From NCBI GenBank assembly GCA_963971535.1, contig OZ020587.1, positions 157,478,488 to 157,542,487 on the forward strand: 64,000 bases of DNA. Direction: 5' to 3'. The DNA is from Notolepis coatsorum (taxonomy: Eukaryota; Chordata; Actinopteri; Aulopiformes; Paralepididae). Under the pieces are notes generated by a model that saw only the letters and a program-made list of their open reading frames with translations, had not been told where the DNA came from and ran no database searches. The translations under genes and the position numbers were made by a program. Positions 8,300 through 63,611 of this stretch are shown here, piece after piece; position 1 is the first letter of the stretch, and every line of letters begins with the position of its first letter.

Positions 8300-11200
8300 A
8301 GAGGGGTTAGGTGATTAGGCCATGAGTGGAAGTTACTAAAATGGATGTGTGACTAACGTGGAGGGATGAAGTAACTGACTGATGCATGAACTAATCGGAC
8401 TAACAAGAACATTAAATCAAATATTCCCAGTAGGGAAATATACCAATCATGGATTTTCCTTTTTGCTACAGTGTTTCTGATCAACTCTTGCTGTGGCAGT
8501 AAGGAAAACGTAAGAGAGAATGGTATGGTGGACGATTTTTGATGTCTCCCACCTGTGCAGCCTGGCCAAGCTGCACAGATGGGAGAAAGAGAGAAAAATT
8601 GTCACCGCAATGGCTTTTGTGGTCATGTGGACTCTGAACTAGGTTAAACAGTTAATATTAGGTATTCAATATTAGACAGTGAAATGATGTGACACTGCGT
8701 CAGCTAGTGATCAGTGGACTATCCATGCTTGATCAATAAACAGTTTGGTCAAAGGGTGGACTGCATGGGTAAGAAATTAAGAAATATTGATAGACGAACA
8801 TCAACAATCATGAGTAATAGATATAGGCGTTTATTTTTATTTCTGCTTATTTTTATTTCCTAGTGTTTTACAAGCGATTCCTGCCTTAGGCCGGAAGTTT
8901 TCATTTAGTTTATTCTTTTGATTTTTTCATTTTGTTTCTTAGTATATACGGGGGTGGTTACGCCCCTAGATAATAGGTTAATTTTGTTTCTAAGAGTGAG
9001 TTGAAAAAGCAATGCTCACAAATTTTGTTTATTGTTTCATTTGTGGTTTTGGCATGTTTTTCTTTGATTTTGTTTCTTTTCTCTATTTTTTTCTTAGGAC
9101 CTGACAGGCTGGGTGGAATCGCGACACAGCAGGACTGGTAGTATATGTCCATATGGTGGGCTGAGAACAATGTGAATGGACTAGAGCTGGTTCATGGTTT
9201 TTGTTCTCCGCTCATTAAAAATCCAGATCTAGGATCTGGGGGTTGTGTCGCGATTGGTGAAGTGTTGGGAAACATGATTCTCTGTACATTGATAAGCTCA
9301 GTAGGTTTTGGTCGCCATTGGCCAAATAGCCTTTGTGTAGGGTGTGGACATGTGCAATTGATAATTGGCTTGTGGGGGACTCTGACGGCTAGAGGCTGGC
9401 GGAGTGTGTGAAAGATGTGTGTTTAAAGCGGACTGTGGTTTGTTGTTGTGGACTACTGGGGGAGAGGTCTCGTCAGTATTGGCTGTCCGGGCCCCGAACA
9501 GCTGTCCAGGAATGGAGGTATGATGTTTAGAATGTTATTCCACATCAAAGGAGGGTGGGGTTATACTGTTTTGACAGCATAATCAGCATAATATAATGAG
9601 AGCCATGTGAATTTTTCTGAATTTTGAATATTAATGATCTAGAAGCCATGGAATATATAGATAAAGGATTTGGAAAAGAAAAGAAAGTTGTCAAACTCAG
9701 ACCAGTAAAGAGTGTCTGAGGGAGGAAAAATATGGATTCTCAATAAATTATTGTGATAGAAGTAACCTGCGCTGTCCACCGAAGCGATATATACTCACTG
9801 CAGGATACGAATGGGAGATTGGGGAGTCAGCAGTCATCAGAGTGTGGTACGAGGAAGACCAAGGACTCCATCGGTACTGTTGATCCAGGACACTGGCTAG
9901 TGTCTACCCAGCGGTTCCATGGGGAACCACAACACTGCGGGTACCAAGAGATCCAGGAGAAGCCTAACTCTCAAGCGTTGAGAGTTCCGGCCAACGCAGT
10001 GACCAAATCTTGAGGCTTCGGAGGGGAACGAGAGAGGCCAAACGACAGGCAATCTACGAGGAGACAGGCTGCAAGGCCTTAGCAACTGACCGGGTGTCAT
10101 CGAGTGAGGGGGTGGAGCCTCTATCGCCCTTATCAACGACCAGGCGGAGGGTGGGGAGAATCAAACCTCTTCCACTATTCCGAGGGTCAACAGGTGTTGA
10201 GCCAGCGATGACTGCAGGAGACAACACAACCTCCTCAACAGCCGTGACAGCGCCAGAGGGGAGATCTAATCACCCCACCTGAGATCGACGCAACTGACAT
10301 CCGAGAGAAGAGCTCCTGGTTCAACTGAACAGGCCAATACAGCAGGGGGTCATGCCCCTATTTGAGTGACAGCACGAGGCATGAGGCCTCGACAGAAGAA
10401 GGGGAGGGATCGGAAGTCAACTGGCTTTCTGATTCTACCTCCCTGTTTTGAAGCCAAGATTTGGTGGTAGCATTAAGAGGGAGATCAGCAGTCTTGATCT
10501 GCACCGTCTCTGAGAAATGAGGAGGGGGTGGCCAGGTCAATCCAGAAAACATTGACCCCCCTTCTCCCTGCTCCAAGTCAGAATTTGACACCCCCAAGGG
10601 AAACCAGTGGGAAATTGATCCTGGTACGAAAAAGAGTGTCAAAGACTGCACACTGCACACAGTGAATGAAAATGGACTAAAAATAAAGATGTTTGGGTGA
10701 CGATAGCTATACATAGGAAAGAGATGTAGAAAAAGAATGTTGTTTTGATTTTTTAGGATCCGAGTGTGGGATGCCGTATGTATTTTATCCAAGTATGATT
10801 TAAAATGTTTTAACTTTTATCCAGGTAGTAGTAAGCAGAAGTTAGGATCTATGTTTAGCATATTATACTAGCTAATTAAGGATAGTTAATCTCTATCCGA
10901 GTGTGGACTGTAGTATTATTTGATAAACCATAAATCCTAAATGTACTGGAAAATGTTCCTAATAGAAAAGGTTCTAAGTAAGCATAAGGATTGGTCATAA
11001 AAGATGTCTTTCAGTCATGAACCACAGGGGGCCAGGCCCTGAGGCTACATTGCAATAAAATAGAACAGATGGTTGTCCCTAGGTTAAGGAACTTTGTAAA
11101 TAATCATAAGTCATTTAATTAGAAAATACTACTGGATTTGTGTGCAAAATGAATGCTTTATACTTTTAGTCTTAAACAATAAGTGGTTAATAGGTTGGCA

Positions 11201-11796
11201 ATCAAATATAGTTTAAACCTGATTAAACTAGAGTGATTTAGCTCAGAGATTGTGTGTGTCTACAGAGACTTGGGCTCACAACAGGAGGTAGATTTGCATA
11301 CAACTGTTGGCAGCTGCAGACAATAGATCAAGAGTCACATATCCTGTGTTATCTGTTAAACTGGTCTGATTACTACATGTGGAGACAGCTGCCGTAGGAG
11401 GGACTATGATTCAGTATCTCAGTAACATCAAGTACACTTTCAAATGTCTGTTTCTATACCTAAATTAGCTTAAAATGAACTGCAAATGATCCTGTTATAT
11501 TGTGGTAACAATTCTGAATCTAATGATATAAAATATGCCATGTTTATGAATAAGAATCACAGAGTTTGAAATTAAACCACTTCTGGACTTCATTGGAAAA
11601 ATACTTAACGTGCTGAATAATAACTGTATAAAATAGATATTGATTTAAGTTAAAAGAATATGATTAGGAAACTATAGAAGTGGGCTTAATGATAAAACTA
11701 CTGTGATTCTCATTTAGCATCAAGAGAAACTATTCAAAAATGATATCTCTGTGTTCATGAAATCAATCTCAATTCGAATATATATATCTTGGGTTT
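8300..11796. other. Unassigned 3' interior of LTR element
   Basis: No recognised protein. Small frames at 9753-10282 do not resemble any polymerase, integrase or envelope segment I know. Pyrimidine-rich acceptors near 8935 and 9098, and a purine run AAAGGAGGGTGGGG near 9547, could be functional retroelement signals. The purine run would be a polypurine tract only if the LTR is longer than the repeated part seen here. Confidence 0.4.
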
Positions 11797-11810
11797 AATA
11801 ACCAAAGTAT

Positions 11811-12296
11811 AGGGCGGCTAGGTGGTGTAGTGGTCTAAGGCACTCGCCACCAGTGTGGAGACGCTAGGATTCGCGTGTTCGAATCCAGCTCTCCACATTG
11901 TTTTTCAGTTTGGCTGGTCGTCCGCAGTAATACACATTGGCCGTATTACGGGGAGGGAAAAACTGAAGGGTGGGGATCGAACGTTGTGAACAAGCGGCTC
12001 CTGCAGGTCGGTTGGTGCGCCTGCGCAGTAGAGTCAGGAAGTGTCGGGGGCAGCGTGAGCCTCCCACGCGTTACTCCTCGACACTGAGAGGTCGAGCTGC
12101 GCAGGTGAAAAGATGCGACTGCTGTTACCTCAAGTACCGGAGGGGACTTGTGCTATGTATGACTTAGTCCTCACTGCAGCCGGCTTGTGGGAGGCAAGAA
12201 ACAGCGTTCGTGACAGGGGAGGGTTGAATTGGATGATACGAAATTGGGATGGGAGAAAATATAGAAAAATGGGAGAAAAAGTGGATCAAAAAAAAA
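11811..12296 (+). mobile_element. tRNA-derived SINE with 14-bp TSD
   Basis: The head (from 11811) has a tRNA-like polymerase III promoter: an A-box-like TGGTGTAGTGGTCTAAGG and a B box GTTCGAATCC. The unit ends in an A-rich tail near 12290. The flanking sequence AATAACCAAAGTAT is repeated exactly at 11797-11810 and 12297-12310, a textbook L1-type target-site duplication. It landed immediately before, or within, the 3' LTR of the host element. Confidence 0.9.
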
Positions 12297-12310
12297 AATA
12301 ACCAAAGTAT

Positions 12311-12943
12311 TATGTTAGTTAGACGGTATCTATTCTTTGATTGGAAAACAAAGGAGACAGCTGGTGGGCCCCAGGGGACGGCCCCTCTTTTTCAAATACT
12401 CTGTGAAGGCTCGCGATTGGGTGGAAATCCTATGCGTGAGGTCACTTGGTGACGTCACGCCCAGGGTTTCTGGCTCAGGGATAAAATGGGGTGTGGTGAC
12501 TGTGGGGACAGACTGAAAACGGAACAACACAGGACCACACCCACCTTTTCACACGGAGGACGGCGCGAGCAGAGGAGAACAAGCTTTTGGAAGGAGAACA
12601 GAATCCTCTTTGTTATCAACAGAGAACAAAGACAACTCAACAATTACCATTCTTTAATCTACTTTTTTAGTCTGGTCTGGATCACAGACGGCATAGTGTC
12701 TAGTGATCCGACTATAGCATTCATTATTTTAATTGAACCAGAACCATTGTGATTACACTTTTAACTTTGAATTAAACAGATGCTGGTACAACTTCTCCTT
12801 CATTTCTCCTTCTTAGCTGCCGTCGAACAAGACCAGAGTTATGGTCTTTTGAAAGTACCAGGGTTTTTAGGACGGGCAATTCACAACGCAGAGTATTGGT
12901 TCTGATGTCATCAGAACAGAACATAGACCCTAGGTGACTTCAA
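12311..12943 (+). repeat. 3' LTR copy
   Basis: This is the direct repeat of 1-644, lacking a 10-bp duplication found near 270-280 of the 5' copy. Homology with the 5' copy ends at 12943, where flanking DNA begins. The TG at 12313 corresponds to the TG at 5. No polypurine tract precedes it, because the SINE and its target duplication sit at this junction. Confidence 0.8.
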
Positions 12944-12959
12944 TCTGAAGCACAATATT

Positions 12960-13200
12960 ATCGGAAGCACAATGCCTTTGAATCGTCCTTTTACTTACAT
13001 TAACATTTACATTGAGTCAGCTATAGCTGACACTTTTATTCAAAGTGACTTACGGTACATAGTGAACAACAAGTCAGCAGGAAGGGTACAACTCTGGCAG
13101 ATAAGGGTCAGTGGTGATGTTCATCAAATCAGGGTTCCCACAGACATTGCAAAATGAAATTCAAGGACTTTCAAAAGTTTCAAGTACTTTTCCAAGCACT
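12960..13200 (+). repeat. Fish interspersed repeat fragment
   Basis: The stretch around 12996-13060 (TTTTATTCAAAGTGACTTAC) resembles a very common teleost repeat that usually reads TTTTATCCAAAGCGACTTAC. The part around 13125-13195 resembles another dispersed fish repeat. Both are short, degenerate pieces. Confidence 0.5.
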
Positions 13201-13528
13201 ATTTTTCATTTTAAAAGGGCATTTAAAAGGATCCAATTCACTTTTAAATGCGTTTTTTTTTTTTTTTTTTTTGGAAAATAATCGGATCCAATATGTATGG
13301 CTTTCCGACAATTAGTTACACTTTAGATAAAAAAAATGCAATTTCTTGATTCAGAACAATTTGATCATGGATGAACAAAACTTTCAATGCGGAATGGTTG
13401 ATTTGAATTCCAAGGACGTTTAAAACACCTTGTTAAAAAAAAGTCAAGGAATTCCAGGGAGAGAGAGATGCAGAGGATCACACGACAACGACCCCTCTCT
13501 TGCCAGCCTGACTCCCATGTAGTGTAGT

Positions 13529-13529
<1 letters not shown>

Positions 13530-13602
<73 letters not shown>
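13530..13602 (+). repeat. (GA)n microsatellite
   Basis: About 36 uninterrupted GA dinucleotides, followed by a purine-rich, imperfect continuation to about 13640. Purine/pyrimidine strand asymmetry allows triplex formation. Confidence 0.98.
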
Positions 13603-13608
<6 letters not shown>

Positions 13609-13639
13609 AGGAAGAGAGATGGAAAGAGATGAAGGGTGA

Positions 13640-14454
13640 AAGAAACCAGTGGTGGTTTTCAATGTATGTGATGGATAGATTAGGGGGAGATGACCGCATC
13701 TAAAGGGGCCCGGGTCAGAGAGGTCGAAATGTGCATGGTGACGGTGGTGGCGGTTTGAACGGTGGAGGAAGCGGTCTAGTGGCTGGCAGTCAGTGGGAGC
13801 AGCACACTGCCAGCGAGCGGGGTGTTGACATTCCGATCTAGAACACAACAAGATAACGGCGGGGCACAGGAGACAGGGAGCAGAGCGATGGAGGTTTTGA
13901 CAGTAATGAAATGTTTTGATGTGTGTAAAGGTTAAAGCTGTTGTCATGGCAGCGGCACATGACAACCAGAAGAGGGGCGGGCCGTCGTTGCTATGGCGAG
14001 AATATAGAAAAGCAAGCTCCTTCCGGGTGTAAGCCAGACCAAGACGACTAAGGGCAGACTACAATCTGACTAGGACTGAGATCACACAGAAGAGACTCCC
14101 TCCTCTCATCACAGAGATAGGGGGGGGGGGGGGGGGGGGGGGGGAAGGAGGCCACATCATCATTAGCTTCGGCTAACACAAGGAGGGTTCTGGCTAACGA
14201 CCAGGCCTGACCACTATTGGACTGAATAGCAGAAGGACGATAGACTGAACACACCAAAAGACCATTAGAATAGATCTTACAAGGACAATACGAATTGGTT
14301 CCGAATTGGTTCCCATTTGATTATGAGGTCTCTGTTTATGAAAATAAACGCTTCTCCTTGTAAGGTATTACGCTGTGTCGAGTGTCGAATTCTTACGAAG
14401 GTGGAGGATTGCACTAACGGGAGAGATAAGGATTGTACAGCCAGTATATGAGAC
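13640..14454. other. Unassigned, low complexity up to assembly gap
   Basis: No coding signal or recognised repeat apart from a 25-base G run at 14120-14144. The sequence is interrupted by the assembly gap. Confidence 0.5.
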
Positions 14455-14654
14455 NNNNNNNNNNNNNNNNNNNNNNNNNNNNNNNNNNNNNNNNNNNNNN
14501 NNNNNNNNNNNNNNNNNNNNNNNNNNNNNNNNNNNNNNNNNNNNNNNNNNNNNNNNNNNNNNNNNNNNNNNNNNNNNNNNNNNNNNNNNNNNNNNNNNNN
14601 NNNNNNNNNNNNNNNNNNNNNNNNNNNNNNNNNNNNNNNNNNNNNNNNNNNNNN
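14455..14654. other. Assembly gap (200 N)
   Basis: Exactly 200 N bases, which is a placeholder length and not a measured gap size. Any reading frame drawn across it is artificial. Confidence 1.
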
Positions 14655-14917
14655 TGTACAGAGTTGTAGTATTAATATGTACAGTGTCACAGGTATAGAG
14701 ACACTATGGTAGTAAGTCGTACTGGCCAGCAGTGTAACTAGTAAGAGTAGGTAAGGGATGATATAGATATAGTATCTACAGATATGTAAAAAGGATTATA
14801 TGCATATGTACAGACAGATGTGTATATATATATATGGTAAGAATAAATATATACAGATATGTAAAAAGGATTATATGCATATGTACAGACAGATGTGTAT
14901 ATATATATCTGGTAAGA

Positions 14918-14979
<62 letters not shown>

Positions 14980-15265
14980 GGTTTATACAGCATTATTGTA
15001 CATGCTACCACACAGAGTTATATGGGTTATATGCAGGTGCACAAGTAGGTATATAGAAGGATTATATGCAGGTATATTCAGACAGATATGGATATATATA
15101 TGCAGTCAATCGAAATATATATGTATATACGATATATACAGCACAATTGTACATGTTATCATACAGTATACACTACAGAAAGAGAGAGAGATAGTATGCA
15201 GAGCTATATGGGTAGATATATAGTATGAGGTAGGTAGTTGTGATTATTATGATTACAGTGTAGGG
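14655..15265 (-). mobile_element. LINE 3' region, reverse orientation
   Basis: The reverse complement of this segment matches 40690-41240 closely, including the block around GACACTATGGTAGTAAGTC and the motif AGTAAGAGTAGGTAAGGG. In the right-hand copy the sequence continues into a LINE-type 3' end (CTGTATGATGACAATACA near 41395), so this is a LINE 3' untranslated region on the minus strand. It contains two copies of a ~75-bp unit (14777-14925) and a (TA)n run at 14924-14978. Homology resumes at 15550-15612, so the LINE tail at 15266-15549 was inserted into it. Confidence 0.7.
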
Positions 15266-15549
<284 letters not shown>

Positions 15550-15682
15550 GTAGACAGTGAAAGCAGTAAAGGTAGGTATAAATTGAGTATAGGCAACAGA
15601 GTTCAGAGTTCAAAGCCATCATGTTTAGATGGCTTTCATGTTTCTTGACAAACCGCCACATTCGATACCAAAAGATAACATA

Positions 15683-16075
15683 GGGCGGCACGGTGGTGTA
15701 GTGGTTAACACTGTCGCCTCACACACAGCTATAGAAGGTCCTGGGTTCGATTCCCGCTTGGGGACCAGGTTGCCTTGTTGCCAGTTACCCAGGTAGGGGT
15801 ATCTCCCGGGCCTTTCTGTGTGGAGTTTGCATGCCCCCCCTTTTGCTCGCAAGGGTTCCCCCCCCCCCCCCCCCCCCCCCCCCCCGGGCGCGGCCGCAGC
15901 CCCTATCTGATCCCGGCTGCCCTTAGGGGGGGAAGGACGACGGGATGGGAAGTGCAGAGAACATTTCATTCAGTGACTCAGTGCGTGTGTGTGCGTGTGT
16001 TCCTGTGGGTCGCACATCGCATGTGTGTGTGTTAAAATCTGCATGACAAATAAAGACTTCTCCTTCTCATTGATA
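15683..16075 (+). mobile_element. tRNA-headed SINE-like repeat
   Basis: The head GGGCGGCACGGTGGTGTAG and the B box GGGTTCGATTCCC form a tRNA-like pol III promoter. The body contains GTGTGGAGTTTGCATG, a hallmark of a widespread teleost repeat. It includes a 28-base C run at 15858-15885 and ends with AAATAAAGACTTCTCCTTC. It differs in its body from the SINE at 11811. Confidence 0.75.
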
Positions 16076-16167
16076 GCCTTGTTGAGGTATGACTGCAAAG
16101 GTAATAATACGCTCTCTTTCAGTCACCAAAACAAAACCCGCCCAAAAAAGTAGACCGAAGCCAAAGG

Positions 16168-16228
16168 GCAAAAAAAGAAGAAGAAAAAGAAGAAGAAGAA
16201 GAAGAAGAAGAAGAAGAAGAAGAAGAGG
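16168..16228 (+). repeat. (AAG)n microsatellite
   Basis: About 20 units of AAG/AGA, preceded by imperfect A-rich purine sequence. Any lysine/arginine-rich frame through it is a by-product of the repeat. Confidence 0.95.
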
Positions 16229-16490
16229 AGAATTAGTAGCCTACGCCATAGCCGAGAAATTAATCGTGTCCCTCTCTGAAGATGAACGGTGTCCCAGGTT
16301 ATTAATGAGTACATAATAACGGCCCATGCGGGGAAGTTGTGCGTGTCCTGGTGATGAATGTGACGGAGCCGGTCGAGGAGCGTGTTGACTAATGGCCCGG
16401 TGTCCCGGGACGTGATCCCTGTCCTCTGGGGGCCACAGCCGCCGCCGTCTGCGTCTCACATCACGCCAACACCCCGTGTGTCCACTCTAG

Positions 16491-16945
16491 GTACTGCTGC
16501 TCGCTAAAGACCCAGTCAGTGATCCACTATAACGCAGGGGTTCTCAAACTTTTTCATACCGCGGCCCCCATTTTATTTAGGATATTTTTTTTGGGGAACC
16601 CACATTTTAATGTATCGCGTAATTTCAGACGTGGAATTAAGGAATATCAAAATAAAAGCACACGTTGTTGAACTTGATTGTGCATATTTATTAGAAAATG
16701 CAATTACAGCACTATGTTATCGATACACATTTATAAAACGAGGCATATTTTAGCCAAAATATTTTGGCAGAACATTACATTTTTATTTATTTTTAATAAA
16801 TTATTTTTTACTTGCCAATGCCCTATAGGTACGCTGCTCTCTAAAGACCCAGTCAGTGATCCACTACAGGTACGCTGCTTGCTAAAGACCCAGTCAGTGA
16901 TCCACTACAGGTACGCTACTCGCTAAAGACCCAGTCAGTGATCCA
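16491..16945 (+). repeat. 41-bp minisatellite split by a hAT MITE fragment
   Basis: Units of about 41 bp share the core CTAAAGACCCAGTCAGTGAT. One unit lies at 16491-16534 and three at 16828-16945. Between them, at 16535-16827, is a hAT MITE starting CAGGGGTTCTCAAACTTTTT that also occurs at 45435. The right end of the MITE here lacks a clean inverted terminus, so it is truncated or decayed. Confidence 0.8.
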
Positions 16946-17063
16946 CATATGAACCAATGGGTAACTCCACCACAATACAATATTTTTTTTTGAATTTTCT
17001 TTTTGAAAGATAATAGGGGAAAAAATCAAGTGGACATGTTTTTATTCTTTAGTTGAATGATTC

Positions 17064-17580
17064 AGCTTAGGCGAGTCAATCTATGAAAAAAAAGCACTTA
17101 ACCCAAAAAAAATTTATACAAAAGGTTTTTCGATGGATTCCGAAAGTATTGGGCGTGCTAAATAACATACTAAAAGTCGACCAAAATCGACCCCCCCGAA
17201 AGCCGCCATCTCCAAGATGGCGTCCCAGATGGCGGTGGAGATATTAAAATGGCTATATCTCAAATTGAGAAAGGATTTCTCAACTGATTCTGGTACCTCT
17301 GGGCATGTTCACTAACATACTAAAAATCTAGGAAAATACACCTTCCAGAAAGGCTTAATTTTCAAGATGGCGTCCAAAATGGCGGCAGACCAAGCTTAAA
17401 ATGGCTATATATCTCAATAGAAAAAAATATATAACTATGATTTTTCACTTGATTCTGGTACCTCTAGACATGCTTGTGAACATACTAAAAATCTAGGAAA
17501 ATACACCTTCCGGAAAGGCATCATTTTCAAGATGGCGTCCAAACTGGCGCCCAGGAGCTTAAAATGACTATACAAATACA
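17064..17580 (+). repeat. Left inverted repeat of PIN/CXC element, tandem units
   Basis: Tandem units of about 150-165 bp, each with ATTCTGGTACCTCTRGRCATG-like, AACATACTAAAA and CAAGATGGCGTCC blocks, begin near 17064 (AGGCGAGTCAAT), 17246 and 17398; the fragment at 17561 is partial. The reverse complement of 39915-40577 carries the same units in the same order counted from the outer edge. The outermost unit of both arms has GGGCGTGCTAAATAAC, the second GGGCATG..CACTAAC, the third TAGACATGCTT or TAGACATACTT. This collinearity supports true terminal inverted repeats rather than chance copies. The large coding region begins 80 bp inside this arm. Confidence 0.75.
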
Positions 17581-17659
17581 AATAGCTTACTAAAAAAGGT
17601 GTTTGCACTCTCCAGCTCTCAAGCTAGCATAGTTGAAGCCTTCTTTTTGACCATTATAG

Positions 17660-19093
17660 TTGTTATATAAACAAAATGATGAGTGGTCATTCAAAGTCAA
17701 AGGTAGAATTGAATACTATAATAGTGATCTACATGCTGCAGACTGTGTGTATCATAATGCTTGTAGCACACATTTCCGGTGTGACCGTGATGTTCCCATG
17801 GAATTTCAGCCTGATTGTAATCCAAAGCGGAGAAAGTCTGGAAGGCCAAAGAATGAGGACCAAGAACAAGCCTTCTCAAAAATGTGTGCTTACTTTGAAA
17901 CGAATGATGATGGACAGCTGACCGTTTCTGCACTTAGGTGTAAAATGCAAGAGTATTTGTCTAAGGCCGATTCCATCCCATATAGTAATCAATACCTAAA
18001 AACATTGCTGATGCAACGATATGCAAATAGCATATTTATTGCAGAAGGAGATGGCTTGGATTGTATTGTTACAATAAGAGAGAAAACATCAGACATACTC
18101 AGATCCTACTATAACAACACAAAACAAAACAGTGATGAAGAGTCTGAGAAGAGACACTTACTTGAAACAGCTGCAAAACTCATAAAAAGTGACATAATGA
18201 CTAATGTTCCACCTGTTAATGAGTACCCGACTACAGAGACACTAAAACTACAGAATGCCCTTGATTATATTCCACAATCACTCCACATTGTGTTAAAAGC
18301 TTTGTTTGTCGGTAAAGAGACAGAGCAGAAAATTGCTAGTATTGGCCACACAATCATACAGGCAGTCCGACCACGAGCTGTCCTTGCCCCTTTGCAAATT
18401 GGCCTAGCAGTGCAAATGCACCACTTAAACCGGTCTCGGTTCATTGTAGATATGCTGAATAAGATGGGATTCTGCTCTTCCTATTCTGAACTGCAGAGGT
18501 TTGAAATGAATGCTGCAAATTGTACTGCACCAAACATGCTTGGTAAGGATATTGATGTGTTGAACACGACCGTCTTATTTGTTGCAGACAATGTAGATCA
18601 TAATATTCTAACAATTGATGGGAAAGGGACATTTCATGGGATGGGCATGATAGCTGCCTTGACACCAGGACAGAAGACAGACCAAAGGATTCCGAGGTTC
18701 AGAATTAATGAACTGAATCTTGTGCAGAGGTCAAAAGTTGTGATAATAGATTATCACTTTGCCAAACACTTTTGCAGAGACACCACATTTAAAGAACTTC
18801 CAAGACTCGCAGAATGTAACAAGATGGTTGATCTGCTTTGGGAGTTATCGTTCAATTTCAAACAGCCTGCACCTGGTTGGCAGGGGATGATGCACATTAT
18901 TCATAAGGGAGATGAACATCCAGGGCAGTCTTCAGTGAGATACTTACCAATGATAGACATGTACTCCGGAGACAAAACATGCATTCTGTCAACACTGGAG
19001 TTCATTTGTGGTCTGGCATCCAAACACCACCTTGCCCCAGTAGTTACATTTGACCAACCCCTATATTGGAAAGCAGCAGAGATAATCCTAGAT
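17660..19093 (+). CDS. PIN/CXC protein, N-terminal part (interrupted by hAT)
   Basis: There are 478 open codons. A stop lies directly before 17660, and the bases before it (TTTTTGACCATTATAG) form a plausible 3' splice site, so this is probably the second coding exon; the first in-frame ATG is near 17797. Near the start, DLHAADCVYHNACSTHF has the spacing of a small C/H metal-binding motif. Later landmarks are LFVADNVDHN and GTFHGMGMIAAL (about 18577-18660) and VTFDQPLYWKAAEI (about 19045-19085). I do not recognise a named family for this half. The frame ends exactly at the 8-bp target duplication of the hAT insertion and resumes in phase at 20524. There are no internal stops, unlike almost every other coding remnant here, which suggests recent function. 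Confidence 0.75.
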
Positions 19094-20515
19094 CAGGGGT
19101 CTCAAACTCAATTTACCTGGGGGCCGCTGGAGGTAGAGTCTGGGTGAGGCTGGGCCGCATCAAATATTCCACAAAAAAAGGGTTTCAAGTATTCCAAAAA
19201 AAAGTACAACTGATCCAATCTTCTCAATCTTTAGCAATAACAATTCAGAACATGAACAGTTCTTCAGAACATGAACGGTTCTTCAGAACATAGGCTTCTC
19301 AGTGGTGTCAGTGGACTCATCCACAGCTATGGAAATGCACTGTGCATTTTTTTTATTCTATCACAACGCTGTTTATTCTGGTTGCTGTGCAATCTGAGGG
19401 GGTTTTGCTTTTGTTTGCCTTCAAACATGGTCTCCATTACTTCAGTCATACATTATTTTATTATGTATGCATCAGAGAGAGAGAATGGCTTCTTGCCACT
19501 GAGTGAGGACTTGGTATCTGTATGTCATAATATGTCCTGATTAATTGAAAATGGGGGACCCTGATGTAAACAAGACGAAAGTCTTTCTCTGGTCTGCATC
19601 CCCTTAACAATTGTGTGTATTGAGCTGTACTGTATTGTACCCATTCTGCAATCTGTTAATACAGTTTTCAATCAATCAATCAATCAATCAATACACGTCA
19701 ATTCTAGCCTCCGATCCCATGACGTCATTTATCTCCTGCGGAGTGAGGATTATAAAATGAACGTGTTTTAAAGTGTGATGCTGTTTGTCATTTTAACAGC
19801 AGATACACTTTCTTAAATTCCATTGTCCCCGACAGAGCGTGTGACGGGGAGCTCGGACGGGATGTGTTTTGCTTGGTGTTATTATAGCATTAGCTGAAAA
19901 GCTAGCGTTAGCTACGTTACATCAAATCAGATGATGTCCTTTCTCCAGGACCTGACACTCTGTCCGTCTATCAACAATAATGCACCCACGGTGAATCGTA
20001 TTTAAGTCAAGTAGCTAGTGACTAGCGTCAGCTGACTAACGTTATCAAATGTCAATGTGAAAACCTTGCGGGGAAGACGAGCTAGGTCAGCTAGCTTAGC
20101 TTGACAACGGTCCCGTGGCTAATCCAGCAATAATGGCTGCAATCCTGCAAGCAAAGTACAGCAAGTTCCAAGTGCCAAAGGATAAGAGTCTCTGAGGCGG
20201 AGTCTCAAAAGAGAATGTTGAATATTTATTTTGCATCGAAAATCACAACATTCGAACGTCACTACTAGCCAGAGTCTCTGCGACTGCTACAGACTGGGTA
20301 GCGAGTGCAACACCGTCTAATGTCCGTGCGGATCATTGGAGTAGGGTATATCTGCAGTGCCGCAGCCCCATAAAACGTCCAACTCTCGCGCAACGACTCA
20401 GCAAACAGTTGCGTGCGGGCCGCATTAACACTACACTTTGACGTCAAGTAGGGGGCCGCAAAATATCATCCCGTGGGCCGCAAATGGCCCGCGGGCCGTG
20501 AGTTTGAGACCCCTG
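19094..20515 (+). mobile_element. hAT-type MITE with 8-bp TSD, inserted in PIN/CXC gene
   Basis: The termini are inverted: CAGGGGTCTCAAACTC at the left and GAGTTTGAGACCCCTG at the right. The flanks carry a perfect 8-bp duplication, TCCTAGAT, at 19086-19093 and 20516-20523, as expected for hAT transposition. There is no transposase frame, so it is non-autonomous. A LINE tail with a short (AATC)n is nested inside at about 19512-19692. Removing the element and one duplication leaves the host reading frame intact. Confidence 0.95.
19512..19692 (+). mobile_element. LINE 3' tail nested in hAT MITE
   Basis: The same tail as at 15266-15549: GAAAATGGGGGACCC, ACAAGACGAAAGTC, TGTATTGAGCTGTACTG, then a short AATC repeat ending near 19692. 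It is a severely 5'-truncated LINE insertion that occurred after the hAT had landed. Confidence 0.9.
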
Positions 20516-20523
20516 TCCTAGAT

Positions 20524-23187
20524 TCACCACAGTGCAGTCACCTCAAGTCCTTTGTCCTGCTCCTAGGAGGATTTCACACATTTATGAATTTGCTAGGAGC
20601 AATTGGTACACTGATGGACGGTACAGGACTTAAGGACATTCTATGGGTAGTCTATGGGGAGAACTCAGTAGCCCATATGATGACAGGCAAATCAGTTCAG
20701 AGAGAATTCCGTGGCCATCTTCTGGTTGACAAATGTCTTAACCGCATTATAATATCAGAAATGGTAGATGATAGTCATGAATTTGCAGCAATGGTTGAAC
20801 AGTCTGAAGCAATGTATACCTCAATAGTTAAGGGTGAAATGTCATTGGAAACAGTGTTCACATCAGAGACCCTCATTACAATAAATGAAGAGCTGGGAAA
20901 AAGGAAGATGGAACTGTGTGCTAGATCCAAAACTAGTCAGTTGTGGCTAAATTACCAACACATGTTAGAAGTTGCTAGGTCACTGATAACAGCAGATCGC
21001 ACAGGTTCCTGGCTTTTGCACCTACGCGCTGTTTCTGAATGCATGCCGATATTCGCTGCGGCTGGGCATTACAATTACTTGAAATCGGCACACTTTTATG
21101 TCCAAGAGATGAGTCAGCTTCACATCAACCACCCAGATGTCTTCAGACAATTTGAAAAGGGTTTTCATGTTATCCGTCGCAGCAGCCAATCATGGGCAGG
21201 CCTCAGCTCAGATCTTGTAATCGAAACAACATTGATGAGGTCATTGAAGACTACAGGAGGGATGACACATGGAAGTGGAATGACCGACAATCAGAGATCC
21301 CTTTGGACAATGTCAAAGGGCATAACATCAGAGTATAACACCGCAATGCAGGAGTTCTCAAACCAGACATACACAACATCAGAACAGCACAAGGATTCAA
21401 CAGAGGCAAGGATGAAAAGGGATGCTGCTGACCTGGAGAAGATCACTTCAAAACTTGCTATATGTTCACCTTTCTCTCCAGACTCTTCTTTAAGGAATGT
21501 TGTTACAGGTGTTGTCGCTGAGGATGGAGTGAACGTGCATGATTATGACTCTGTTGGACGCAACATCATGCACAAAATGATTGGACAGCCGGCATTCACA
21601 TTTTCATTTAGTAGAAAGGATAAAGCCATAACCCTTGGACAAAAATCATTTATCAAGGTTGCTCCTGATCGAATCATTGATTCTGCACTTCTTTTTCAAT
21701 GTTTCCTTATTGTCTCCCAAACTGGAGAGCTGTCATTGGAGGAGGTTATGCGTTACGAACTCAGTCCTTTCCCTCCTGCCCTCTTTGAAGCCGGAAACGT
21801 CTTCCGCAAAGCTGATAAACCACAACTAGCGCACGCGATCTGTGATCATGCAAGTGATGCAATCCTAGATTCTGTACCAGAAACGGAGCATTATGTTCTT
21901 GATGGTGGTTCACTCCTTCACCGAATACAATGGAAGCACGGACAAAGCTATGGTAAAATTGCACAGTCATATGCAGACTTCACCATCCAACATTATGGCT
22001 CAGCTACAACCATTGTGTTTGATGGCTATGAGGATGGGCCATCCATTAAAGACAACACACATCAAAGAAGAGGAAACAATATTCATCCCATTGTCAACTT
22101 CACTGCTGAGACAGAGTTCTCAGGTAAGAAGGAGGAGTTCCTGTCAAGAGATCTGAATAAACAGAAACTGATCCACATGATAAGTGATGAACTGAAAGAA
22201 CGGGATTGCACTGTGGTCAATTCACTTGGAAATGCTGATGTAGACATAGTAAGGGCCGCAGTGGGATCATCTCTTCTTCACACCACGACGCTGATTGGAG
22301 AAGATACTGATCTCCTCGTCTTACTTCTTTACTATGCACAGAGAGATAGCAAGGGCCTTTATTTCAGATCAGACAAGTCGAAAGCTGATGGCAGTTTTAA
22401 AGTGTACGCCATAAACCATTTGAAAGAAGTACTCGGACAGGATGTGTGTTCTCAGTTGCTGTTCATCCATGCTGTGACTGGCTGTGACACAACTTCCCGG
22501 ATCTTCGGAGTTGGCAAAAAGACAGCATTCCAAAAACTTGTAAAAGGGGATCCTGTCCTTCAGGCTTGTGCCAATGCATTCACTGTACCAAACCAGACAA
22601 CAGATGTGATCGATGACCTTGGGTGCCAAGCAATGGCTGTCTTTTTTGGTGGAAAGTGCACAGATTCGCTTGCAAAAATGAGATATAACATTTTCAGCAA
22701 GAAGGTTGTCTCAGCTTCATCAACGGTAACGCCTGAACGTCTACCACCAACTGAATCTGCTACCAAATTCCACTGTCGTAGAGCATACTACCAGGTCATG
22801 GTCTGGATGGGAACAGATGATGGTATAGATGCTCTAGACTGGGGCTGGAACCTGCAGGACAATAGATTTGTCCCACTCATGTCAACAATGAATGCTGCTC
22901 CAGACAGTCTCTTGAAGGTCATTCATTGTAACTGTACCACTGCCTGCAAGACACTTCGCTGCTCATGCAGAAAATATGGACTACCTTGTACTACTGTCTG
23001 TGGACCATGTCAACTTCATGAATGTGACAATCCACATACAGATGAAGCTTTTAGTATTCATGGGCGCTTTGCCGCGACGCGCGCACGGTTATATCACGTC
23101 GTTTTAATTAATTGGGAACCCAGGCTGCTGTTCTGTTTTATGCCGCCAGGAGGCGCAAAGTCGCCCGGCCCGGCGGCGGTCTATTGA
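20524..23187 (+). CDS. PIN/CXC protein, C-terminal part with nuclease-like and CXC domains
   Basis: There are 887 open codons continuing the frame that stops at 19093. LLGGFHTFMNLLGAIG lies at about 20560. A PIN/FEN-like nuclease domain spans roughly 21885-22545: YVLDGGSLLHR (first acidic residue), IVFDGYEDGPS (second), LIGEDTDLLVLL (acidic pair), VTGCDTTS and GVGKKTAFQKL, the last like the helix-hairpin segment of XPG/FEN and asteroid-type proteins. At 22926-23025 follows a cysteine cluster, C-x-C-x3-C-x4-C-x-C-x6-C-x3-C-x2-C-x4-C, resembling a tesmin/TSO1-type CXC zinc domain. The last ~45 codons are GC-rich and unlike the rest, so the native stop may have been lost. Predicted activity is nucleic-acid cleavage; the target is unknown. 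Flanking inverted repeats suggest a transposon gene. Confidence 0.8.
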   Translation, partial: SPQCSHLKSFVLLLGGFHTFMNLLGAIGTLMDGTGLKDILWVVYGENSVAHMMTGKSVQREFRGHLLVDKCLNRIIISEMVDDSHEFAAMVEQSEAMYTSIVKGEMSLETVFTSETLITINEELGKRKMELCARSKTSQLWLNYQHMLEVARSLITADRTGSWLLHLRAVSECMPIFAAAGHYNYLKSAHFYVQEMSQLHINHPDVFRQFEKGFHVIRRSSQSWAGLSSDLVIETTLMRSLKTTGGMTHGSGMTDNQRSLWTMSKGITSEYNTAMQEFSNQTYTTSEQHKDSTEARMKRDAADLEKITSKLAICSPFSPDSSLRNVVTGVVAEDGVNVHDYDSVGRNIMHKMIGQPAFTFSFSRKDKAITLGQKSFIKVAPDRIIDSALLFQCFLIVSQTGELSLEEVMRYELSPFPPALFEAGNVFRKADKPQLAHAICDHASDAILDSVPETEHYVLDGGSLLHRIQWKHGQSYGKIAQSYADFTIQHYGSATTIVFDGYEDGPSIKDNTHQRRGNNIHPIVNFTAETEFSGKKEEFLSRDLNKQKLIHMISDELKERDCTVVNSLGNADVDIVRAAVGSSLLHTTTLIGEDTDLLVLLLYYAQRDSKGLYFRSDKSKADGSFKVYAINHLKEVLGQDVCSQLLFIHAVTGCDTTSRIFGVGKKTAFQKLVKGDPVLQACANAFTVPNQTTDVIDDLGCQAMAVFFGGKCTDSLAKMRYNIFSKKVVSASSTVTPERLPPTESATKFHCRRAYYQVMVWMGTDDGIDALDWGWNLQDNRFVPLMSTMNAAPDSLLKVIHCNCTTACKTLRCSCRKYGLPCTTVCGPCQLHECDNPHTDEAFSIHGRFAATRARLYHVVLINWEPRLLFCFMPPGGAKSPGPAAVY

Positions 23188-39535: not shown

Positions 39536-39914
39536 TTCATGCAGTCTGTAGACATAGGATGTTGTAGCATCCTATGAATGAAGTCACCAGCTGTAATCGA
39601 ACTGAATGTAACTCGAGCTTTGTCAGGCGCGGAGCTCCTCCAATGAATGAACCAAAAGCCGGCGCGTCGGGCCGTTGTCACCAGCTGTATGAGAGCGCCC
39701 CCGCTGGTCATTGTTACCGTTAACGATGGCCAAACGGTCCCCAAACAGTGGTTCCAGGACTTTTCCCGGCTTCATCTGTAACAAGTTTCTCCCAGAGGAT
39801 CCTGAAGATGATGATGAGTAGGCCTAAAGACCACAATAAGTGGGTCATTTATTTTGTGTTCAACACCAAAGCCAGCTTTCTAGGTTGAATATAATAACCA
39901 ATTTTAATTTTAGC

Positions 39915-40577
39915 CAAAATAAGCTACAGGCAGCCATTTTGATGATGCAAATGATGCATTCCTAGCAGATATATTTAGCTAGATATTTTGCTCATTATTA
40001 ATGTATAGAGGTGCCAGAATCAGTTTATAAATCCTTTAGAAATGTTTTCCCATTTGAGATACAGGCATTCTAAGCTCCCAGTCGTCATTTTGGACACCAT
40101 TTTGAAAATTAAGCCTCTTCGGAAGGTGTATTTCCCTAAAACTTTAGTATGTTCCTAAGTATGTCTAGGGGTACTTGGGGTACCAGAATCAAATGACAAA
40201 ATCATTTATATAATTTTTATATTGACATATATATAGCCATTTTAAGCTTGGCCAGCCGCAATTTTGGACGCCATCTTGAAAATGAAGCCTTTCTGGAAGG
40301 TGTATTTTCCTAGATTTTTAGTATGTTAGTGAGCATGCCCAGAGGTACCAGAATCAGTTGAGAAATCCTTTGCACCATTTTCTTAATTTGAGATATAGCC
40401 ATTTTAATCGCACCGGCGCCATCTGGGACGCCATCTTGGAAATGACGGCTTTCGGAGGGGTCGATTTTGGTCGACTTTTAGTATGTTATTTAGCACGCCC
40501 AATACTACCAGAATCCATTGAAAAACCTTTTGTATCAATTTTTTTGGGGTTAAACCATATATTGACTCGCCTAGCTC
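39915..40577 (-). repeat. Right inverted repeat of PIN/CXC element
   Basis: In reverse this starts AGGCGAGTCAATATATGG and repeats the left arm at roughly 85-90% identity by eye, with the same order of unit variants and the same CAAGATGGCGTCCCAGATGG block. It holds one more inner unit than the left arm. Just outside, AGCT occurs next to the terminus on both sides, a possible short target duplication, though not a clean one. Confidence 0.75.
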
Positions 40578-50844: not shown

Positions 50845-52047
50845 AGTTTCAAGTTTCTTTAATAGTTGTCATACAGAAGTACAGAATACTTTCATACAAA
50901 ATGCTTCTTACTGTTACGCTCCAGAGACTGTGCTAGACAAGATAGTATCAAATAACATAGTATAGCATGTAATTTAGAAGAAGAAAATGAGGTCACAGTG
51001 TTCGGTATAGACATATGTACAATGTTCTGAGTTACCATATAATATACAATACTATGCAGTGTACTAATGTACAGTACTATCTAGTGCAAAGCAGAAATGG
51101 GATGAGGTACAATTTAGGTACAATTTACAGTAAGGTGTACGAGTTGTAGTGCAATCCTTCATCAATAAATATAAAGTGTGGGGAGTGGGTGCTACAGTGT
51201 GTTTGTTTAAAGTGGGTGTGTGCTATAAAGTGTGTGGAGTGGGTGCTACAGTGTGTTTGTTTAAAGTGAGTGTGTGCGTGTGGATGTGTGTGCTATGTGC
51301 GTTTGGTGGTTGTTGTTGTGTAGTGTTCATTCATTGTTCGTTTAGCAGCCTGATGGCCTGGGGATAGAAGCTTCTTCTGAGTCTTTCTGTGCTCGCCTTG
51401 AGACTCCGGTATCGCTTGCCTGACCGCAGCAGTTCAAAGAGGCAGTTGTTCGGGTGACTGGAGTCTTTAATGATTCTCTTAGCCTTGCCCTTGCAACGCT
51501 TGTTGTAAATGTTCTGGAGGGTGGGGAGCCCCCCTCCAATTGTGCGTTTGGCTGAACGTGTCACTCTTTGTAGTCTGCTTCGGTCTTGTGCAGTGCTATT
51601 CCCAAACCAGGAGGTGATGTTGCCGGTCAAGATGCTCTCTATTGTACATGAGTAGAAGTTCTTAAGGATCTTCTGACTGACTTGGAACTTCCTTAGGCGC
51701 CTGAGGAAGTAGAGGCGTTGTCGTGCCTTCTTCACAACACTGTCAATGTGTGTGGTCCATGTCAAGTCCTCGGATATGTAGGCTCCGAGGTACTTAAAGC
51801 TGTTGACTCTCTCAACCGGTGCCCCGTCGATGCTGAGGGGGCTGTAGTCCTTGACCCCCGACCTCCTGAAGTCCACAATCATCTCCTTTGTTTTGCTGAC
51901 GTTCAGGGAGAGGCTGTTTTCCTGGCACCATCCCGCCAGGACCTTGACCTCTTCCAGGTAGGCCCTCTCGTCGTTGGCAGAGATCAGGCCCACCACCACT
52001 GTGTCGTCAGCAAATTTGATGATTGTATTGCTACTCCGCTGAGCCAC
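50845..52047 (-). pseudogene. LINE RT C-terminal half plus 3' UTR (CR1/L2-like)
   Basis: The minus strand holds a 238-codon open frame (51331-52047) beginning at FADDTVVVGLI, the RT catalytic motif. Then come NVSKTKEMIVDFR, VNSFKYLGAYISEDLTWTTH, KARQRLYFLRRLRKF, ESILTGNITSWFGN, RVTRSAKRTIGG and SFYPQAIRLLN, the usual order of a CR1/L2/Rex1-like RT C-terminus. A 3' UTR of about 480 bp follows, ending in repeats of CTTGAAA near 50845-50860. The upstream fingers, palm start and endonuclease are missing: a 5'-truncated insertion. No stop or frameshift is visible, so it is young. It is the best-preserved LINE coding piece here and the parent family of 3105-3587. Confidence 0.88.
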
Positions 52048-52049
52048 AC

Positions 52050-52122
52050 AGTGTATTGTGTATTGAGCCGTACTGTATTGTACGCATTCTGCATCTGGTA
52101 ATAAAATGTTTAATCAATCATT
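52050..52122 (+). mobile_element. LINE 3' tail, very short
   Basis: Only the last ~70 bp of the common tail (TGTATTGAGCCGTACTGTA to AATCAATC), abutting the truncated 5' edge of the minus-strand LINE. Confidence 0.8.
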
Positions 52123-58136: not shown

Positions 58137-60814
58137 TTGGCGAGTCCAGGGTTGGCAACACACAGCGGGAGGGACCGGGCCTCCTATCTACGGTTCCTGG
58201 CGGACCAGCGCCAGTTGGCTGCGGGTGCGCTTTGGGATTATCATCACGTATGGTTACAGGAGTGCCGTATGTCAAGGTGGATGGAGAGAACGCTGAGGGA
58301 GGGGCTTGTGTTACAGTTTGCACAACACCACCCTCCGTTTTTGGGTTTGGTACGCGTGAACACTTAAGGTAACTAACTTGCGTTCACGACACCCACGTGA
58401 ACGCGCGCTAGCACGCCCCCTTATCCACGCCTGCCGCTCTGTGTGTTGCGCGGCAGAGGTCCCTGTGTGTTCTCGCCTTCCTCAATTTATACGCATGGAA
58501 GTATTGACTATGCCGTAACGAATCATTAAAAAAGATATACCGTTAACTGGAATATGTTGTGCCTTTACACATATGTTGGATTATGTAATTGGTTTGTCAT
58601 GACAAACAAATAAAAAAATTGCGATTTACCCGGTGGCTACAACAACACACAGTGACTGCATGTAGTCACTGTGTGTTGTTGTAGCCACCGGGTAAATCGC
58701 GATTTTTTTATTTGTTTGTCATGACAAACCAATTACATAATCCAACATATGTGTAAAGGCACAACATATTCCAGTTAACGGTATCTTTTTTTAATGATTC
58801 GTTACGGCGCAATCAATACTTCCATGCATTCGGGACCTCCATGTTTTGGGGGTATTCATCAGACAAATCGGATCCGGGATTCGGCTCCCATTAGTCGGGC
58901 AAGAACTGCAGGTTTTCAGCCTCTCTCCTCTCTCCTGGAGCTTAAGGGGGAGCTTAGTATTCCTGCCTCTGAGGAGGTGGCTACAACAACACACAGAGAC
59001 TACATGCAGTCACTGTGTGTTGTTGTAGCCACCGGGTAAATCGCGATTTTTTTTATTTGTTTGTCATGACAAACCAATTACATAATCCAACATATGTGTA
59101 AAGGCACAACATATTCCAGTTAACGGTATATTTTTTTAATGATTCGTTACGGCGTAGTCAATACTTCCATGCGTATAAATTGAGGAAGGCGAGGACACAC
59201 AGGGACCTCTGCCGCTCTGCCGCGCGCTGCAACACACAGAGCGGCAGGCGTGGATAAGGGGGCGTGCTAGCGCGCGTCGTGGCCAATCAGAGAAACGCTG
59301 AACGCAAGTTAGTTACCTTAAGTGTTCACGCGTTTGGTACAGACCCTTTTGTCAGGGTCTGCAGCAATGACAGCTCTGGCCGACGAGATCCAATCTCTGT
59401 TGGCGAAGCAGGCCATCGTCGTGGTCCCAAGGGAGGACACGATGTGTGGCGTTTACTCCCGGTATTTTCTGGTGCCCAAGAAATCGGGAGGTGTCAGACC
59501 TATGCTGGACCTGTCCACATTCAATTGACTGATTGTGGCGAGAAAGTTCAGAATGTTGACCGTCAAACACCTGTTAAGCGCTGTCAGAGTGGGAGACTGG
59601 TTCACCTCCATAGACCGGAAGGATTCGTATTTTCATATCTCGATCTTCCCTCCTCACAGGAAATTCCTACGCTTCCTTTTTCAGGGCATAGCGTACGAGT
59701 ACCAGAGGCTGCCGTTCGGCTACTCTCTGGCTCCTCGCACATTCACCAAGTGCGTGGAGACCGCGCTGGACCCTCTGCGTCGTCAGGGGATACAAATTTT
59801 ATTCTACCTCGACGACATTCTGGTCCTCAGCCGGTCAGAGGAGATCGCCAGGTTTCATACCAGGCTGGTGGGGGAATTCCTCGCCAGTCTGGGTTTTGCT
59901 GTGAACTGGAAGAAGAGTACTCCTCTTCCCAGTCAACAGGTGGAGTACTTGGGCTTGGTTCTAAGCTCATGGCCCATGAGGGCAACCCTCTCAGAGCAGC
60001 GGCGGGAGGATATTCTCGGCGCGCTCAGGAGGTTCCATCCTGGCAGGACGGTTACGGCGCTGTCCGTGACGCGCCTGCTCGGTATGATGGCATCTGCTCA
60101 CTCTGTGGTCCCTCTTGGCCTCCTCTTCATGAGGAGGATACAGAGGTGGTTTTCCAGGATGAAAATAGACCCAGTGAGAGACAAGTGGAAGCGGCTGAAG
60201 GTTCCCGTGTCAGTACTGGGGGATCTCGACCACTGGGGGAGACCTGGTGCCCTCACCAGCGGGGTCCCCATGGGCAGCAGGCTATCACACGTCACGGTCT
60301 TCACGGAATGGGGGGGGACGTGTCGGGCCCACGTAGTAGGGGGCAGATGGCAGTACCATGCTGCCCGGTCTGCTCTACATATCAATGTGTTGGAATTGAA
60401 GGCAGTCCTTCTGGTCCTCAAGTGGCTTGGCCACCTTGTGGTGGACAAGCATGTTTTGATCAGGACGGACAACACGACGGCATCGTCGTATATCAACAGA
60501 CGGTCAGTCGGAAGGACAACCCCTCTCTGGGGGTGGATGCCTTCTCGATGTATCCGTGGCCGCCCGGGATTCTGTATGCGTTCCCCCTCATACATCTGAT
60601 AGCTCAGCTGTTGGAGCGGGTACGTCGGGAGCGCAGGACTTTGATCGCGCCGGACCAGGCCACGGCTGTGTGGTTCCCGGCCCTGATTCAGCTCTTGGTG
60701 GCCCCGGCGTGGCCTGTTCCGAGGTCATCGCGGGCCCTCTCCCAGGCTCACGGGACGCTGTGTCTGTGTCCTGTTCTGGGGCAGCCATTGATGGTTTGGC
60801 TGCTGAAAGGGTGA
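58137..60814 (+). pseudogene. DIRS RT/RNase H, split by foldback insertion
   Basis: The start of the polymerase (TLREGLVLQFAQHHPPFLGL) runs into the 9-bp duplication at 58345-58353. After the foldback element the same frame resumes with ALADEIQSLLAKQAIVVV and YFLVPKKSGGVRPMLDL, then an in-frame TGA at 59526-59528. From 59535: DWFTSIDRKDSYFHI, LPFGYSLAPRTFTK and the catalytic YLDDILVLS, then the RNase H piece INVLELKAVLL and RTDNTTASSYINR at about 60385-60500. Soon after, the frame changes and the sequence jumps to LGVDAFSMYPWPPGILYAFP, so roughly 80 residues expected between the two are deleted. The tail ends near 60814. Product: reverse transcription of DIRS RNA, now lost. Confidence 0.88.
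58354..59331 (+). mobile_element. Foldback element with 9-bp TSD (Mutator-like?)
   Basis: The arms start GCGTGAACACTTAAGGTAAC and end with its reverse complement, and are near-perfect inverted repeats of over 300 bp. GTTTGGTAC is duplicated at 58345-58353 and 59332-59340. The order is left arm, a partial right arm (58664-58829), a 148-bp unrelated spacer (58830-58977), and the full right arm. Nine-base duplications with long inverted ends suit Mutator-like elements. There is no transposase. Removal with one duplication restores the DIRS frame. Confidence 0.93.
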
Positions 60815-63494: not shown

Positions 63495-63611
63495 AGCTCA
63501 CTGCACTTGGTATACCCAGGCGGTCTCCCATCCAAGTACTAACCAGGACCGAACCTGCTTAGCTTTCGATCGGATGAGATCGAGCGTGTTCAGGTTGGTA
63601 TGGCCGTAAGC
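63495..63611 (-). rRNA. 5S rRNA-like sequence (probable pseudogene or 5S-derived element)
   Basis: Read in reverse it runs from GCTTACGGCCATACCAACCT through AGCTAAGCAGGTTCGG (box A region) and TTAGTACTTGGATGGGAGAC (box C region, intact) to a final GTGAGCTT. At 117 nt it is about full length, with roughly a dozen differences and a 2-nt deletion relative to the usual vertebrate 5S sequence. No T-run terminator follows the 3' end. It is therefore a pseudogene, a variant gene, or the head of a 5S-derived SINE. Confidence 0.85.

Follow-up and report, generated by a model that had tools for sequence, protein, structure and literature searches.

The question raised by this locus of Notolepis coatsorum is what kind of mobile element, named or not, encodes the long nuclease-like protein read from it. 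We refer to the whole stretch of DNA analysed (64,000 nucleotides) as the window. Two frames were read from the sequence, one of 495 codons (17660-19147) and another of 911 codons (20452-23187), and removal of a hAT-type insert together with one copy of its duplication joined them into 1,365 codons with a single stop. This bore out an earlier note, made from the letters alone, which had claimed a frame of that length once the hAT insertion was set aside: the joined frame was open throughout, and the motifs listed there (LDGGSLLHR, VFDGYEDGPS, GEDTDLLVLL, GCDTTS and GVGKKTAFQKL, then nine cysteines) were all found along it in the same order. The extent proposed for the protein held for the length of the frame but not for its ends, the codons past 23038 belonging to a further insert and the N-terminus being missing. 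Chance does not explain the open frame, since a protein search with its second part returned 298 homologous proteins at E<=1e-3 (best 120 of the 298 listed).

A broken copy and its later insertions

The whole element spans positions 17068-40573 and its ends are inverted repeats of about 510 bp, flanked by a 3-bp target duplication. Its parts and the insertions that interrupt it are:

17065..17067, no strand: target site duplication GCT, left
17068..17577, + strand: 5' terminal inverted repeat, 510 bp, starting TAGGCGAGTCAAT and pairing with 40573-40052
17667..19093, + strand: predicted transposase, coding part 1, with homology from about residue 134 of P0002 and 99.65% identity to L001; the first two acidic residues (D) of the putative DDE lie in its ADNVDH and TFDQP
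19086..19093 (left) and 20516-20523 (right), no strand: 8-bp duplication TCCTAGAT of the hAT-type insert
19094..20515, + strand: hAT-type insert, 1,422 bp, foreign to the element, with inverted ends CAGGGGTCTCAAACTCA
20516..23038, + strand: predicted transposase, coding part 2, with the FHTFMN segment, DLVIE (putative third acidic residue), FEN/XPG nuclease and cysteines; 99.5% identity to L001
21817..22836, + strand: predicted FEN/XPG nuclease domain with LDGGS, FDGY, DAD, GEDTDLL, GCDTTS and GVGKKTA; approximate bounds, taken from model residues 1-340 aligned to FEN1/EXO1
22927..23025, + strand: nine-cysteine CXC-like cluster, model residues 371-403
23037-23038 and 39779-39780: TA duplication of the 16,740-bp insert, with the unfilled site present in L001
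23039..39778, no strand: later insert of 16,740 bp, foreign to the element, with 10-bp inverted ends CAGATGAAGC
39780..39821, + strand: C-terminal codons NKFLPEDPEDDDE and stop, the same C-terminus as in four intact copies
40052..40573, - strand: 3' terminal inverted repeat, starting TAGGCGAGTCAAT like the left repeat
40574..40576, no strand: target site duplication GCT, right

Alignment of the two inverted repeats gave 450 matches, 47 mismatches and 38 gap columns, and 17068-17572 compared with the inverted 40060-40573 was 84% identical over 527 columns. Within both ends (17068-17577 and 40052-40573) lie internal repeats, each about 160 bp long and diverged, that carry AAGATGGCGTCC.

Another copy of the same genome, L001, aligned with that of the window in four blocks at 97.7-99.65% identity. 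Besides the two inserts, the comparison showed that the window copy has lost about 630 bp (L001 positions 1250-1879), with breakpoints that a local repeat makes hard to place exactly. This deletion removed some 130 N-terminal codons, and the window covers residues 134-1444 of the relative P0002. The N-terminal part gave no convincing match by tblastn of window positions 10000-17700 and none by profile in the six frames of the whole window (best E 1.4). We had considered a missing first exon, a reading that was dropped because four genome copies carry one uninterrupted ORF and the window copy is about 630 bp short at that point. At the other end, the true C-terminus (NKFLPEDPEDDDE and stop) starts at 39780 on the + strand, just inside the right inverted repeat; it is absent from the main ORF, identical in the four intact genome copies, and separated from the rest of the protein by the 16.7-kb insertion.

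The hAT-type insert is devoid of a long ORF, and a short repeat within it (19519-19692) recurs at several places in the window. No stop-to-stop frame of at least 200 residues was found in the 16,740-bp insert, which sits within a very young element. It may be a single large non-autonomous transposon or several elements nested in one another, and 2,513 bp of its sequence are repeated elsewhere in the window. Elsewhere in the window we found a 5S rRNA-like sequence (63495-63611, - strand, 87.5 bits against a cut-off of 38), a reverse transcriptase match (59529-60599, + strand, RVT_1 4.8e-22) and a second RVT_1 match (51331-52113, - strand, 1.9e-5) with ALKBH8_N (4.9e-17) in the same frame.

Copies in the genome, target duplications and age

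Multicopy relatives, for which the earlier note had proposed a search, were found in the element's own genome (3.42 Gb), where P0002, compared with all six frames, had 37 matches that correspond to at least 32 further places after merging fragments by position, a lower bound because 32 of the 4,624 first-look candidates were scored. Likewise, the first 263 bp of the left end had at least 40 near full-length genome matches, that of the window included (40 of 826 candidates scored). We examined 24 copies, namely the window and 23 of the 32 places (L001-L008 and L014-L028; L009-L013 are longer cuts of five among L001-L008). Allowing at most one mismatch in a 13-base motif, both ends were recognised in 16 of them (the window and 15 genome copies), and 15 of these 16 were flanked by an exact 3-bp duplication, compared with 3 of 240 in a control of mispaired flanks. 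None of the 16 matched at 4 or 5 bp, and the single miss was L025, with flanks ATA and ATG. Duplications were left unscored in the remaining 8 of the 24, in which one or both ends were not recognised. Among these, the right-hand motif of L008/L013 carries three mismatches and its flank differs from the left one, which would be a miss if that is the true end. When 1.5-kb flanks of eight loci were aligned, long inverted ends were obtained in five and partly in L003; no such alignment resulted for L004 or L006, and L006 shows both ends in its longer cut, L011. Element lengths were 5,975 bp for L001 and 5,900 bp for L005. Inverted ends plus a duplication of fixed length are what cut-and-paste transposition leaves behind.

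An intact ORF of 1,446-1,455 residues was present in 4 of the 23 genome copies (L001, L003, L004 and L006). Their six pairwise dS values ranged from 0.0064 to 0.0113, with dN/dS of 0.46-0.71, although selection is weakly measured by these ratios because each pair differs by just 6-10.5 synonymous changes. Intact ORFs in four copies, at a dS of 0.006-0.011, indicate that the family is very young in its own genome, and the window copy is a dead, broken member of this young multicopy family.

The nuclease domain and a putative DDE core

A search with residues 400-880 of the coral relative P0112 returned 569 proteins (best 120 of 569 listed). Many relatives among the matches listed were 1,450-1,530 residues long, and their hosts, again among the matches listed, included Coilia grayii, Xyrichtys novacula, Seison nebaliae, Homarus americanus, Nymphon striatum, Porites evermanni, Porites lobata, Mytilus edulis, Lytechinus pictus, Argopecten irradians, Littorina saxatilis and Pinctada imbricata. 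No relatives were found in pattern scans of viral contigs and prokaryote genome contigs, nor by tblastn in phages, all of them collections that may omit records near the window's genome.

The structure lists obtained for the nuclease model were filled by FEN1, EXO1, XPG and XRN folds, and the modelled domain thus shows a FEN/XPG fold. The PIN/FEN-type nuclease with a CXC-like cysteine cluster, as well as the attribution of the protein to a mobile element, had therefore been correctly recognised from the letters; the inverted ends, the 3-bp duplications and the many copies now document the latter. What had been missed, besides those ends and duplications and the Academ/AcademX class discussed below, was a putative DDE transposase core. 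By its sequence and its model, the region that precedes the nuclease looks like such a core of RNase H-like type. Three acidic residues, D438, D593 and E840 in P0002 numbering, were invariant in 28 relatives and occur in RNase H-like order. In model m45a92605d8cd the putative DDE residues (P0001 residues 100, 255 and 502) place one D on strand 94-105, the other D just after strand 251-254 and the E on helix 497-510, positions expected of such a core. The lists for the 1,119-residue model contained no solved transposase, but as the nuclease filled them they say nothing on the DDE core. Conservation was scored in those 125 of 217 proteins in which none of the 19 sites is blank (the other 92 lack at least one): the D/D/E triad, seven nuclease acids and nine cysteines were all retained in 122 of the 125, and the seven acids, on the same chain as the DDE residues, in 123.

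Profile searches were less informative. Nothing above the Pfam cut-off was found for the transposase or its relatives, and DUF6589 was matched below the cut-off by P0085 (2.2e-5) and weakly by 6 of the 28 relatives (best 0.0051). In the relatives P0085, P0154 and P0171 this weak relation concerned the transposase part, a hint that DUF6589 may itself represent the transposase core of Academ-type elements. The 28 relatives matched 17 Pfam families at E<=0.1, none of them a helicase; NCBIfam gave a chance-level match only, and no solved structure was significantly matched when searched by sequence.

Class assignment and a proposed role for the fused nuclease

Academ elements have terminal inverted repeats, and their proteins reportedly (Kapitonov & Jurka, Kojima) combine an XPG nuclease with a cysteine-rich finger. 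The NV of the entry Academ-1_NV we take to be Nematostella, a cnidarian. Academ is a named DDE superfamily according to an excerpt of PMC9587614. Within it, passages of PMC10045372 describe two lineages, AcademX with a nuclease and target duplications of 3 or 4 bp and AcademH with a helicase and duplications of 9 or 10 bp, and duplication length there is seemingly tied to nuclease versus helicase. Accordingly, neither the 'no named transposase class' of the earlier note nor its candidate undescribed system is supported, since the nuclease and the 3-bp duplication fit AcademX. We conclude that the element is very probably a cut-and-paste DNA transposon of the AcademX lineage, a membership judged by anatomy and description and not by a tree. 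Several points count against the assignment: an older paper, in the part available (PMC3627910), mentions a RecQ helicase in Academ, and the gastropod Littorina saxatilis is among the relatives, whereas among molluscs Academ is nearly restricted to bivalves in the sections consulted of PMC10294476; Pfam yields nothing beyond the weak DUF6589, and there are the inexact duplication of L025 and the 8 unscored copies of 24. The class is thus known, and what is new is one well bounded, young, multicopy family of it, so that a candidate undescribed system is replaced by an Academ-type family whose ends, target duplication and number of copies have been established, along with its age and its intact ORFs.

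In the mechanism we propose, one ORF of about 1,450 residues would comprise an N-terminus rich in cysteine and histidine, a DDE core of RNase H-like type into which a large helical insertion is set, the nuclease and a CXC-like zinc cluster. Cutting the long inverted ends and joining them to a target, staggered by 3 bp, would fall to the DDE core. At the excised ends or at gaps in the target, the FEN/XPG domain would trim 5' flaps or overhangs of the second strand, and the cysteine clusters would bind DNA. That the nuclease shapes the duplication length is suggested by the contrast between AcademX and AcademH in the excerpted PMC10045372. The full proposal, with two separate active sites, an obligatory processing step in which the FEN/XPG domain removes a 5' flap or the second strand and thereby sets the duplication at 3 bp, and intact, possibly mobile copies, we regard as tentative, its chances being slightly below even. 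We know of no experimental study of Academ transposition, after a literature search that was not exhaustive. With four intact ORFs less than 1.2% apart at synonymous sites, the role of the fused nuclease can be tested.

On a different reading of the same Academ-type transposon, the nuclease is a mere passenger that does not take part in transposition and serves, for example, in counter-repair. Its part in transposition is, after all, our inference, and AcademH carries a helicase in its place (PMC10045372, in the passages cited). This reading is unlikely, though it keeps appreciable weight: the domain shares a chain with the DDE residues in all 125 proteins, with its seven acids kept as described, and the length of the duplication differs between the nuclease and the helicase lineages in the same passages of PMC10045372. 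We consider it improbable that the family forms a separate superfamily in which a DDE core and an XPG/FEN nuclease were joined independently of Academ. Likeness to Academ proteins was indeed set by description and not by direct sequence comparison, and Pfam yields just the weak DUF6589; however, the nuclease, the 3-bp duplication and the 5,900-5,975-bp length match Academ in the available text of PMC10045372 and PMC10294476 (mean length in bivalves, 5,565 bp), the occurrence in fish and bivalves matches that in extracts of PMC4746887 (recorded in zebrafish, medaka and stickleback, not in tetraodon) and PMC10294476, and the cnidarian entry Academ-1_NV is on record in a portion of PMC9004415. 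There is next to no chance that the frame is a domesticated host gene for a FEN/XPG-family nuclease, as its strongly conserved acidic residues and the JGI names of some relatives, such as 5'-3' exonuclease, might suggest, given that many near-identical copies are spread over many contigs and carry inverted ends and 3-bp duplications. The earlier note had named, as one case against its own reading, a syntenic host gene present once and lacking flanking repeats; this was ruled out, the sequence being multicopy with flanking repeats.

Returning to the AcademX-type transposon that we favour, its nuclease resembles FEN1, EXO1, XPG and XRN in fold and in the row of conserved acidic residues, but here it is one domain of a transposon protein, with about 9-18% identity in structure alignments. 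Unlike hAT elements, the element lacks an 8-bp duplication, which occurs only at the hAT-type insert 19094-20515. Zisupton/KDZ transposons resemble it in having CXC-type cysteines and a DDE core, here a putative one, but are not known to carry an XPG nuclease and make duplications of 8 bp, compared with 3 bp in the present element. AcademH differs by its helicase and 9-10-bp duplications (PMC10045372, in part), compared with a nuclease and 3 bp in 15 of 16 copies here. From AcademX no difference is established, the long internally repeated ends and the nine cysteines lying outside the comparison, and the two are alike, in the portions cited of these sources, as nuclease-bearing DDE transposons with 3- or 4-bp duplications (PMC10045372; here a putative DDE core and 3 bp), a length of about 5.5-6 kb (PMC10294476) and occurrence in fish and bivalves (PMC10294476, PMC4746887).
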